Shown: one piece after another, positions 16,162 through 19,143 of the stretch | Layout of the letters: each line of letters starts with the position of its first letter | How positions within the stretch are numbered: position 1 is the first letter of the stretch | Assembly (NCBI RefSeq): GCF_018437505.1 | Contig: NZ_CP072467.1 | Coordinates: 2,294,001-2,358,000, forward strand | DNA from: Spiractinospora alimapuensis | GTDB lineage: Bacteria; Actinomycetota; Actinomycetes; Streptosporangiales; Streptosporangiaceae | DNA: 64,000 nucleotides | Direction of reading: 5' to 3' | Notes under the pieces: generated by a model | The model's input: the letters and a program-made list of their open reading frames with translations, nothing else | The model's database searches: none | Told to the model about the DNA's origin: nothing | Translations under genes and position numbers: made by a program

Positions 16162-19143
16162 GTGACCGGTGACCACACCAGCTCCGCATGGGCCCGTGCA
16201 CACGGAGGCGGTTCCCGGCCACCCGAGCTCTACTCACCACACGACGACGACCCCCGTACCGTCGGGGTCTATCGGATCGCCGGTCGGCTGGGAGCCGGCT
16301 GGAGCGGCGTCGTGTACGGCGGGTTGGACCTGGACGGGCAGAGCGTCGCCGTGAAGATCGTCCGGCCAGAGCACGCCCAGGACAGCGCCTTTCGGGCGGA
16401 CTTTCCGCACGACGTAGAACGTCTCCGCCGGGTGAGCGGGGTGTGCACCACCCCGGTGCTCGCGGCGGATCCCCACGCCGGATCCCCGTGGGTGGCCACT
16501 CGCTACGCCCCGGGCCGCACCCTGAACGAGCACCTCCGCGAGCTCGGCCCGCTCTCCGGCGACTCCCTGTTGTCGTTCGCCTCCGGCCTCGCTGAGGCGC
16601 TCTCCGCGTTCCACGCGGCGGGAATGGCTCATCGCGACGTCAAGCCCGACAACGCGGTCCTCACCGCGGACGGCCCCGCTCTCGTGGACTTCGGTCTCGC
16701 CACGGCCGGCCGCCCGGTCGGACGCTCCGGCTGGGTGTTTCCCGAGGGCTACGCCGGAGCGACCCCAGGCCCCGAGGCCGACGTCTTCGGCTGGGCCTGC
16801 GTCGTGGCCACCGCCGCCACCGGCCGTCCCCCTTTCGGTTCCGGAACCGCGAAGGAGCTTCGGCACCGCGTCCTGAACTCCGATCCAGACCTCGCTGGGG
16901 TACCCGACGCACTGCGGTTCACCCTGCGCTGGGCCCTCGCCAAGGATCCGGAGGACCGACCGCACGCCAGCACAGTGCTGCGCACCCTGCTCAGCGAGAT
17001 CAACGACGCCCACCCGAGCACGGCCGCCGCCCCGGACGCACGCCTACGCGCCCTGCTCGCCCGCGACTGGGAGGGCATCGCCCCGCGCCCGCACGATCCC
17101 CGACAGTGGGCTCTCGCCAGCGAGGACCGTGACTCCGTCGACGATCTCGACACCGAGACCACCGGCATGACGGTTGACGCGGCCACCACCGGAGTGAACA
17201 CCGCCCCGCGGAGCTCGGGGGCGGGAGCCCCCGAGGACAGTTCGAGCACCGAGGAGCCAGACCCCGACGCGACCACCGCGTTCACCCGCTCGGAGCCGTC
17301 CGGCGCTGGTGGTGCCGCCGACACCGACACCGACACCGACACCGACACCGACACCGACACCGACACCGACGAGAACCATCGCATCAGCGCTCCACGACGC
17401 GACACACTGGCGGCGGCGTCGGCTGGGGCGACTCCCCACTCCGCCACTGATGACCGCGATCGCGCCGAGAACGACGGTCGAGACGGTGGCGTGGCGGAGG
17501 CACGGCCCAGCGCGCGACCGTCCACGGACGCGGACACGGCGGCGCGCCGTGGATCCTCGGAGTGGTCCGGGACAGCGGTTCACACCCCACCGGCCGGCGA
17601 CGCGGGCACCACCGGAGTGAACACCGCCCCGCGACGGTCCGACCCGACGGGCACCACCCCCACCGCTGGGGAGCGTGACTCTGCCCCGGCCCCTCCCCTC
17701 TCCCCGTCCGCGCCGGCCACGTCCCCTTCCGACGCCTGCACCTCCGCCGCCTCCGGTGGGGCGTCGCGCGACGCCGACGTCACCGGAGTGTTCGCCGCCG
17801 ACGCCGTGGGCACTGGATCAGCGGCCAGCGCCGACGGGGACCCCGAATCCGGTGGGGCGGATGCCCTTTCGCCCACGGGGACCCCGGTCCCTGGGACCGT
17901 CGGGGGCCACCCAAGCCCGGGGGACGCAGATTCGGACGTGACCGCCGCGTTCGCCCGTTCACCCCGGCCCGCGCCGGAAGACTCCGCTCACGACCAGGGT
18001 CGAGGCGGCGGGACTCCGGCGGCGCGTCCACCCGCCGCGGGTGACCCCGATGCGGCCACTCCCGACACTCACAACCGGGACGCGGACACGACCGACGGCG
18101 CCGGGGCCGATCGAACGGCCACCTCGCGACGTGACGAATCGCCACCACCGACCGACGACGCGGGCATCACGGGGTTGTTCTCCACTGCGGTCACGACCTC
18201 CGCGAGGGACGGTGGGGCCGCCGAGGACGGTCGGGTGCCCGAAGCCACCCCCGGGTCGGGTGGCGACGCAGCGGTCGCCGGCGTGAACAGCGCCCCCACC
18301 GGTACCGACCACAGCGCGGACGCGGGATCCGCTGCGGCGAGCGCCCCGAGCTCTCGCCCCGAGGGCGGCTCTCCGCCACGTCGACGCAGGCCACGGGTGG
18401 TCGGTGCGGTGCTCGCGGCTGTTTTGGCACTGGTATTGGTCGGTGGCGGATACGCCCTGTACCGCGTGCTCCCGCTGGGTTCTTCGGATGAGGAGGACCC
18501 TGTCGCCGGGGGTGGGGACCCCGACAGCGACGAGCGGGCTCCGGCCTCGCCGGGGAGCGAGCGCGAGGAAGAGTCGCCGGGTTCCGACACCTCGCCGCCG
18601 GAGGGCGACGCGTCCGCCGAGGGCGAGGACAACTCCACCCCTGAGGAGGGCACGGACGGGAACGGGGATCCACCGTGGCCTCCGGAGGCGCAGAACTCCG
18701 CCCAACTGGACGGATACGCGGCCGACCTCAGATTGCGCTCGGAGCTCGGGCCGGGGTGCCTGTTCGACGAGGGCGCCCAACTCACCCGTGAGGCCACCGC
18801 CGAGTCCAGCCCTCCGTCGGACTGTCTGGACCTTCCTCTGACCTCGGGTGACGAACTACGCATCAGTGGGTCGCGGACCTTCTCCGGGAGCAACCCCGGA
18901 CACGTCTCCGTCGAGGAGTTCGCCATCCACACACCCAACGGTGTGATCCGCCCGGATCCGGCCCGTTCGACGCAGACGGTGGACGGCGCCAGCGTCACCT
19001 ACGAACTGGTGTTCCCGACCGCGCCCGGCGCCGGACTGCTCACCTACACGGGTTCGACCGAGGGCAGCGGCCCCTACCCGGCGGTGGGGATCTGCTACGA
19101 CACGCGCACCGGATACTCCGAGGGCCTCGAGACCTGCACCTGA
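16162..19143 (+). CDS. Transmembrane Ser/Thr protein kinase with repeat-bearing linker
   Basis: This 993-residue receptor-like kinase has an intact catalytic domain in residues 37-280: GAGWSGVVYGG glycine loop, Lys65 in SVAVKIV, HRDVKPDN at 157-164, DFG at 176-178 and a shortened activation segment ending FPEGY. Residues about 335-740 form a low-complexity acidic, Thr/Ser/Pro-rich linker. It carries seven recognisable copies of a motif close to D-A-x-T-[GA]-[VFL]-[NF], for example TTGVNTAPR twice, TTAFTRS, VTGVFAA, VTAAFARS, ITGLFST and VAGVNSAP, plus a (DT)8 run. RRRR is followed by one membrane helix (about 745-768) and an external domain of about 220 residues with two Cys pairs. It probably forms an operon with the pseudokinase downstream. 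The repeated threonines could be phosphoacceptors. Confidence 0.88.
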   Translation: MTGDHTSSAWARAHGGGSRPPELYSPHDDDPRTVGVYRIAGRLGAGWSGVVYGGLDLDGQSVAVKIVRPEHAQDSAFRADFPHDVERLRRVSGVCTTPVLAADPHAGSPWVATRYAPGRTLNEHLRELGPLSGDSLLSFASGLAEALSAFHAAGMAHRDVKPDNAVLTADGPALVDFGLATAGRPVGRSGWVFPEGYAGATPGPEADVFGWACVVATAATGRPPFGSGTAKELRHRVLNSDPDLAGVPDALRFTLRWALAKDPEDRPHASTVLRTLLSEINDAHPSTAAAPDARLRALLARDWEGIAPRPHDPRQWALASEDRDSVDDLDTETTGMTVDAATTGVNTAPRSSGAGAPEDSSSTEEPDPDATTAFTRSEPSGAGGAADTDTDTDTDTDTDTDTDENHRISAPRRDTLAAASAGATPHSATDDRDRAENDGRDGGVAEARPSARPSTDADTAARRGSSEWSGTAVHTPPAGDAGTTGVNTAPRRSDPTGTTPTAGERDSAPAPPLSPSAPATSPSDACTSAASGGASRDADVTGVFAADAVGTGSAASADGDPESGGADALSPTGTPVPGTVGGHPSPGDADSDVTAAFARSPRPAPEDSAHDQGRGGGTPAARPPAAGDPDAATPDTHNRDADTTDGAGADRTATSRRDESPPPTDDAGITGLFSTAVTTSARDGGAAEDGRVPEATPGSGGDAAVAGVNSAPTGTDHSADAGSAAASAPSSRPEGGSPPRRRRPRVVGAVLAAVLALVLVGGGYALYRVLPLGSSDEEDPVAGGGDPDSDERAPASPGSEREEESPGSDTSPPEGDASAEGEDNSTPEEGTDGNGDPPWPPEAQNSAQLDGYAADLRLRSELGPGCLFDEGAQLTREATAESSPPSDCLDLPLTSGDELRISGSRTFSGSNPGHVSVEEFAIHTPNGVIRPDPARSTQTVDGASVTYELVFPTAPGAGLLTYTGSTEGSGPYPAVGICYDTRTGYSEGLETCT
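17320..17370 (+). repeat. Hexanucleotide (GACACC)8.5 microsatellite inside the kinase gene
   Basis: Eight and a half perfect GACACC units encode alternating Asp-Thr in the kinase linker. The unit is a multiple of three, so slippage would change linker length without breaking the frame. Confidence 0.95.

Follow-up and report, generated by a model that had tools for sequence, protein, structure and literature searches.

Threonine phosphorylation in the disordered segment that joins a bacterial kinase domain to the membrane has been described for StkP of Streptococcus pneumoniae, in which seven juxtamembrane threonines located within 38 residues (T293-T330) are phosphorylated, and in which this phosphorylation influences the recruitment of division proteins (PMC12077195). 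In Mycobacterium tuberculosis, the juxtamembrane domain of the membrane kinase PknB recruits the FHA protein FhaA (PMC6180346, PMC12077195), the FHA domain of FhaA is anchored mainly by phospho-T382 of the protein CwlM, in the sequence pT-G-T-F (PMC6180346), and phosphorylation by PknF of the ABC transporter Rv1747, which combines FHA domains with a disordered linker, promotes the formation of condensates (PMC9312465). Here we consider a transmembrane Ser/Thr kinase of Spiractinospora alimapuensis, encoded on a stretch of 64,000 nucleotides (positions 2294001-2358000 of the single-contig 5.86 Mb genome, NZ_CP072467.1; referred to as “the window”), whose kinase domain and transmembrane helix are separated by a linker of 421 residues carrying a repeated Thr-centred motif.

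Like the juxtamembrane domain of StkP, the window linker is a disordered connection between kinase and membrane; it differs in carrying a repeated motif on 421 residues, and in belonging to a genome with six FHA genes, whereas streptococci are without FHA domains according to the StkP study (PMC12077195). With PknB and FhaA the proposed array would share an arrangement in which the juxtamembrane domain of a membrane kinase brings in an FHA protein (PMC6180346, PMC12077195), although PknB has a PASTA ectodomain and the juxtamembrane domains of the PknB orthologues read are shorter (32-112 residues), and the window kinase an unrelated ectodomain and seven sites on 421 residues. The core of the CwlM tail bound by FhaA, pT382-G-T-F, is nearly identical to T-G-V-F and T-G-L-F of the window, whereas CwlM is a soluble protein with one site as its main anchor and the window kinase carries an array (PMC6180346). 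In Rv1747 the FHA domains and the linker sit in the transporter substrate, whereas the window linker belongs to a kinase without FHA domains (PMC9312465). A first-pass annotation, made from the DNA letters alone, had been aware of no published system of this form, a statement contradicted by the seven-phosphothreonine domain of StkP (PMC12077195) and the recruitment of FhaA by PknB (PMC6180346, PMC12077195). Since its sites fit the signature of related kinases of this bacterial group, the array represents a known arrangement in expanded form, with a much longer linker and a recurrent motif, and not a new kind of system. A T-x-hydrophobic-hydrophobic rule shared between juxtamembrane linkers, as reported below, was not found described in the open-access literature searched.

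The linker motif and its copies

The linker motif of the window kinase, D-A-x-[TVI]-T-[GA]-[VLAF]-[FN], occurs in seven Thr-bearing copies and one Thr-less copy (M0 to M7, Table 1). The kinase, its low-complexity linker and the presence of a repeated motif had been correctly recognised in the first-pass annotation, the seven Thr-centred copies of which have to be recounted: six of those listed possess the Thr, VAGVNSAP has Ala706 in its place, and the unlisted TETTGMTV (Thr334) brings the Thr-bearing total to seven. The irregular spacing, given as 30-140 residues, is 29-112 when measured between the listed copies. A repeat search at the DNA level finds the motif repeat independently (family D1 with five copies and D4 with three). 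Positions 17184-17210 and 17607-17633 are, as had been noted, identical over exactly 27 nt without extension on either side, and belong to a longer block with 34 of 35 nt identical (17176-17210 and 17599-17633, i.e., M1 and M3). The proposed recent duplication of the unit is retained for this pair and not for the other copies, in which codons and residues differ and the spacing of Thr and hydrophobic residue is kept. With the leading Thr of each T-T pair taken as the acceptor, the residue at Thr+3 is Phe for Thr371, Thr541, Thr594 and Thr670, Val for Thr342 and Thr483, and Met for Thr333, and the copies then have the hydrophobic +3 residue of FHA ligands of the pT-x-x-hydrophobic kind.

The look-alike copies are by themselves only moderately significant: an unbiased motif search of the linker protein sequence, from which a (TD)n tract had been taken out, gave a better result than any of 40 shuffles in two settings and failed to do so in the other two. 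Because of this divided outcome, our case is not rested on the similarity of the repeats. Counted as a spacing pattern, T-x-hydrophobic-[FLMIVN] occurs four times in the window linker against 0.4 expected (reached in 0 of 300 shuffles), the corresponding counts with Thr replaced by Ser, Ala or Gly being 0, 1 and 0. The linker is poor in hydrophobic residues, with 30 VILMFWYC residues among 421, 15 of which fall in the 48 motif residues (p 4e-8, for motif positions picked after the fact), and all four of its Phe residues are located at Thr+3.

A Thr-specific pattern in the linkers of other kinases

Judged from sequence counts, the Thr-specific pattern is strongly enriched in juxtamembrane linkers of this genome, of its family and of PknB orthologues across the class, Ser being without a comparable signal. 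The choice of T-x-[VILMF]-[FLMIVN] followed inspection of the window linker and of that of a sister kinase of the same genome (L053), the N being included because of TGVN; the tests performed without these two linkers, i.e., a strict set of disordered segments and the PknB sets, are the ones to trust. Because some of the sites in related genomes go back to a common ancestor, shuffle counts overstate independence throughout.

With the window left out, 43 non-redundant linkers contain the pattern 35 times, the expected number being 6.3 (0 of 300 shuffles); control patterns occur 7 times against 5.0 for Ser, 12 against 12.6 for Ala, 8 against 7.6 for Gly and 2 against 3.4 for Gln, and 29 extracellular segments counted alongside contain 2 against 2.4. 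Both this set and the window shuffle test kept some folded segments (for example those of L052 and L013), which are dropped in the strict set. The latter comprises 29 disordered segments, neither the window nor L053 being included, and contains 10 sites against 1.75 expected (0 of 1000 shuffles), with 0 against 1.3 for Ser and 0 against 0.9 in extracellular segments. The hydrophobic excess after Thr is found in this set at +2 (z 4.5) and +3 (z 4.7), z ranging from -1.8 to 1.3 at the other offsets. Acidic residues upstream of Thr were also tried as a general code and gave z 3.6 at -2 in the 43-linker set, yet Ser gave 3.2 and the strict test nothing, and this candidate was dropped.

PknB orthologues are present in 190 of 197 genomes of the class (own included). 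Seventy PknB loci (L199-L268) were read, 30 of which were returned by the search and 40 hand-picked to spread over families; 69 yielded a juxtamembrane domain (32-112 residues), 43 of these domains being non-redundant. The non-redundant domains contain 40 sites against 5.4 expected (0 of 1000 shuffles) and no Ser form against 2.1, with a hydrophobic excess of z 11.1 at +3 and 7.4 at +2. Thirteen of the 40 sites begin at most 12 residues from the cut point and may represent a single inherited site; a second test, intended to drop a site possibly shared by descent, was made with the 12 residues that follow this point trimmed off. This trimmed set retains 27 sites against 3.1 (0 of 1000 shuffles), or 26 against 2.95 when N is removed from the expression, with Ser at 0 against 1.3 and Pro at 5 against 5.0. 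Among all 69 domains, T-x-hydrophobic-[FLMIVN] is found in 50, T-x-x-hydrophobic in 67 and the Ser form in one.

Retention of the sites in the sister kinase

The sister kinase L053 (G000:C1:376547-377338) has six such sites in its linker and, at E ≤ 1e-90, finds matches in 125 of the 341 family genomes, its own being one of them. An alignment of 29 linkers of L053 and its orthologues (30 loci, one being too short) has eight majority-Thr columns with a mean identity of 0.80, the values for other majority columns (number in brackets) being A 0.53 (29), G 0.60 (20), P 0.70 (8), S 0.52 (4) and V 0.78 (2). Individual linkers contain between 1 and 8 copies of T-[AS]-[VMAI]-[MLFY]. Retention of the motif amid drifting flanks, which had been proposed for the window kinase, is thus seen in the aligned sequences of a different kinase. 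In an orthologue of L053 (L161), several tandem PPTAVYGQNTGGQT units in the linker represent a tandem multiplication of the Thr site.

FHA proteins of the genome and a candidate docking array

Among the six FHA genes of the genome, one encodes a protein with FhaA_N and FHA domains (PF12401, E 7e-41), the FHA domain of which has as its closest PDB match TB39.8, which we take to be Rv0020c/FhaA. Another FHA protein, L109 (G000:C1:838372-838563), has an N-terminal zinc ribbon ahead of a GETTSTIS segment; we presume it to be GarA-like and liken this segment to the GarA phosphosite.

We consider it somewhat probable that the window linker serves FHA proteins as a multivalent docking array of phosphothreonines; the phosphorylation, the acting kinase, the FHA binding and the gain from multivalency are what we infer. 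A Hanks-type kinase, being either the window kinase or another kinase of the genome acting in trans, would phosphorylate the motif threonines, and the resulting sites, pT-[GA]-[VLA]-[F/N] with acidic residues upstream, would then be ligands of FHA domains, with FhaA as the most probable reader. With its seven sites, a single flexible membrane tether might recruit several FHA molecules, or provide binding of high avidity, and an input received by the ectodomain could in this manner be converted into a recruited complex. This docking array is favoured because the Thr/+3 pattern fits FHA recognition, because T-G-V-F and T-G-L-F resemble the pT-G-T-F of CwlM, and because the genome possesses an FhaA. 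For the docking or autophosphorylation array suggested in the first-pass annotation, with an FHA reader as a possibility, the support obtained is indirect, consisting of a Thr-specific pattern in other linkers that is absent with Ser and from extracellular segments and that matches an experimentally demonstrated FhaA ligand (PMC6180346). PknA-dependent sites of M. tuberculosis favour acidic residues at -1 and at -3 to -6, and Leu or Val at +3 (PMC7164672); a Thr-only preference with a hydrophobic residue at +3 fits kinase specificity and FHA recognition alike.

A number of observations weigh against this docking array. In the window linker itself, Thr is lost from one copy (Ala706), and Asn, which is not hydrophobic, occupies +3 of the second Thr in two copies. 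The own activity of the window kinase is uncertain, as judged from the absence of the usual activation-segment threonines. The kinase is matched at E ≤ 1e-72 in 42 of 341 family genomes (own included; best identity 54%), the genus-level search set consisting of the own genome only (1 of 1), and no orthologous linker was found among the 341; the array is absent from every nearest-homologue linker inspected, among them eight family linkers (that of L088 being interrupted by undetermined bases). In the wider search for relatives of the kinase, the motif expression, applied to the kinase open reading frames (ORFs) of 24 of the 26 loci L082-L107, gave a single match, located outside the linker (L086), and a scan of genome contigs returned three loci, L001, which on inspection has no array, and L002 and L003, which match the kinase domain only. 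No near match to the kinase-domain DNA was found in the plasmid collection.

The counts in other linkers contain further such points. Some controls are mildly raised, i.e., Pro (14 against 9.0) and Asp (8 against 4.7) in the 43-linker set and Pro (15 against 8.95) in the untrimmed PknB set, and Ser reaches z 2.2 at +2 in the strict set, in which no enrichment of acidic residues is seen upstream of Thr (z at most 1.4 at -7 to -1). The site is present in only 28 of the 43 non-redundant PknB domains, and this set shows an unexplained hydrophobic excess at Thr+6 (z 4.5; 4.3 when trimmed) and a smaller one at -6 (z 2.9). Nineteen L053-like kinases from outside the family (19 of 24 new loci, five same-family loci being left out) provided five linkers passing the length and redundancy filters, with 0 sites against 0.30 expected, and this set lends no support to a rule that would apply in every kinase type. 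In published work, none of the seven StkP phosphothreonines fits the predicted StkP motif (PMC12077195), and the seven juxtamembrane sites of PknA in M. bovis BCG are three Ser and four Thr (PMC4389566).

Alternative explanations

The threonines could instead be ordinary autophosphorylation sites that tune the kinase itself, through linker charge or release of autoinhibition, without a dedicated reader and with a copy number reflecting linker length. We regard this as unlikely, though it survives best among the alternatives. Juxtamembrane phosphorylation is widespread, as illustrated by the PknA sites in M. bovis BCG, and a self-regulation model exists for PknB (PMC4389566), while several StkP phosphates may, according to the authors of that study, act merely as negative charge (PMC12077195). 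Pure charge would, however, not need hydrophobic residues favoured precisely at +2 and +3, although a kinase substrate preference would, and the four copies with Phe at Thr+3 resemble the known FhaA ligand (PMC6180346).

An explanation in which the copies stay unphosphorylated and act as short hydrophobic docking or sticker motifs in an otherwise polar linker, for example by binding the groove of their own kinase domain or each other, appears improbable. Half of the hydrophobic residues of the linker lie inside motifs and one copy keeps the pattern with Ala for Thr, as would suit such stickers; the pattern is nevertheless Thr-specific, Ser, Ala, Gly, Asp and Gln being without comparable excess, and it is missing from extracellular segments. 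Neutral growth of repeats by slippage and short duplications in a drifting low-complexity linker, without any selected role, has in its favour the 27-nt identical pair, the perfect hexamer tract between copies, the absence of the array from the nearest relatives inspected and the motif search that beat all shuffles in just two of four settings, yet we give it little credence, as the other copies, though divergent in codons and residues, preserve the distance between Thr and the hydrophobic residues, and the same spacing rule is found in other linkers.

A possible shared juxtamembrane code

From a comparison of StkP, PknB and PrkC, the StkP authors inferred that juxtamembrane phosphorylation sites lack conservation and that each kinase may have a code of its own (PMC12077195). 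Our counts suggest that one Thr-specific T-x-hydrophobic-hydrophobic rule recurs within Actinomycetes, in paralogues of the genome, in the family and in PknB orthologues of many families, and the broader interest of the present locus lies in this shared rule, as opposed to the kinase-specific sites inferred from three distant kinases. Tentatively, and with considerable doubt, it may be proposed that actinomycete membrane kinases share a juxtamembrane code, pT-x-hydrophobic-hydrophobic, read by FhaA-type FHA domains, and that in this lineage, and separately in the L053 kinase family, a long tether has acquired many copies of what was a single site, giving a kinase with a self-built membrane-anchored FHA scaffold or condensate. 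If true, the rule would predict docking threonines, whose number and spacing would in turn point to the kinases that serve as multivalent scaffolds; the window kinase and the L053 family are natural high-copy cases for testing it.

Domain layout of the window kinase and neighbouring features

Pkinase matches in the genome number 39, of which 38 are over the cut-off. The window kinase, with a Pkinase (PF00069) score of 81.9 bits against a cut-off of 31.7, is by this score and its catalytic residues a Hanks-type Ser/Thr kinase: VAVK at residue 62, HRDVKPDN at 157 and DFG at 176 align with PknE and PknB. Only kinase models were found in it among Pfam models at E ≤ 0.01, and no FHA domain. Its activation segment (DFGLATAGRPVGRSGWVFPE) is short and without T-x-T, no Thr being present between DFGLAT and FPE; the Thr pair found there in PknB is a feature that not every Hanks-type kinase needs. 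Because the segment is short and has no T-x-T, another kinase may perform part of the linker phosphorylation.

Table 1. Features of the window kinase gene and its linker motif copies, with positions counted from the first nucleotide of the window.
Feature	Position	Strand	Remarks
Transmembrane Ser/Thr kinase ORF	16162-19143	+	GTG start, 993 aa
Kinase domain	16270-16983	+	residues 37-274; with VAVK, HRDVKPDN, DFG
Disordered linker	17116-18378	+	residues 319-739, 421 aa; disorder judged by composition
M0 TETTGMTV	17152-17175	+	Thr334; absent from the earlier list
M1 DAATTGVNTAP	17176-17208	+	Thr342/343; central Thr343
M2 DPDATTAFTRS	17260-17292	+	Thr371/372; central Thr372
CCGACA hexamer tract	17318-17370	+	perfect, 8.8 units; codes for (TD)n within the linker
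M3 DAGTTGVNTAP	17599-17631	+	Thr483/484; central Thr484
M4 DADVTGVFAA	17770-17799	+	Thr541
M5 DSDVTAAFARS	17929-17961	+	Thr594
M6 DDAGITGLFST	18154-18186	+	Thr670
M7 DAAVAGVNSAP	18265-18297	+	Ala706 replacing Thr
Predicted transmembrane helix	18397-18477	+	from residue 746; hydrophobic stretch in the sequence
Extracellular beta-rich domain	18634-19140	+	about residues 825-993

The ectodomain is matched at E ≤ 0.001 in 9 of 340 other family genomes, and four positions (two Cys and two Pro) are invariant in nine sequences of this ectodomain family, which is borne by short-linker kinases of related genera. Its structure model has a mean pLDDT of 77, and a PDB search with this model gave no match at E ≤ 0.001 among the 1096 counted at E ≤ 10; because of this lack of a confident fold match, we do not assign a sensing function to the ectodomain. 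The length of the (TD)n tract may differ among strains, since its 6-nt unit preserves the frame.

The next gene (19275-21275, + strand) encodes a kinase-fold membrane protein resembling a pseudokinase, with VIVTTI at the site of the catalytic Lys, HRAVSPET for HRDxKPxN and VGIG for DFG, and the two genes would form a kinase/pseudokinase pair; a repeat of the nonamer GACGAGGAG at 21189-21229 specifies the very acidic C-terminal tail of the pseudokinase. Elsewhere in the genome, L054 (G000:C1:1106346-1107125) is an open frame of 2119 residues in which a kinase domain is joined to a helicase- or ATPase-like part, with TGTGSGKS after the kinase domain, and is possibly a defence-type gene.

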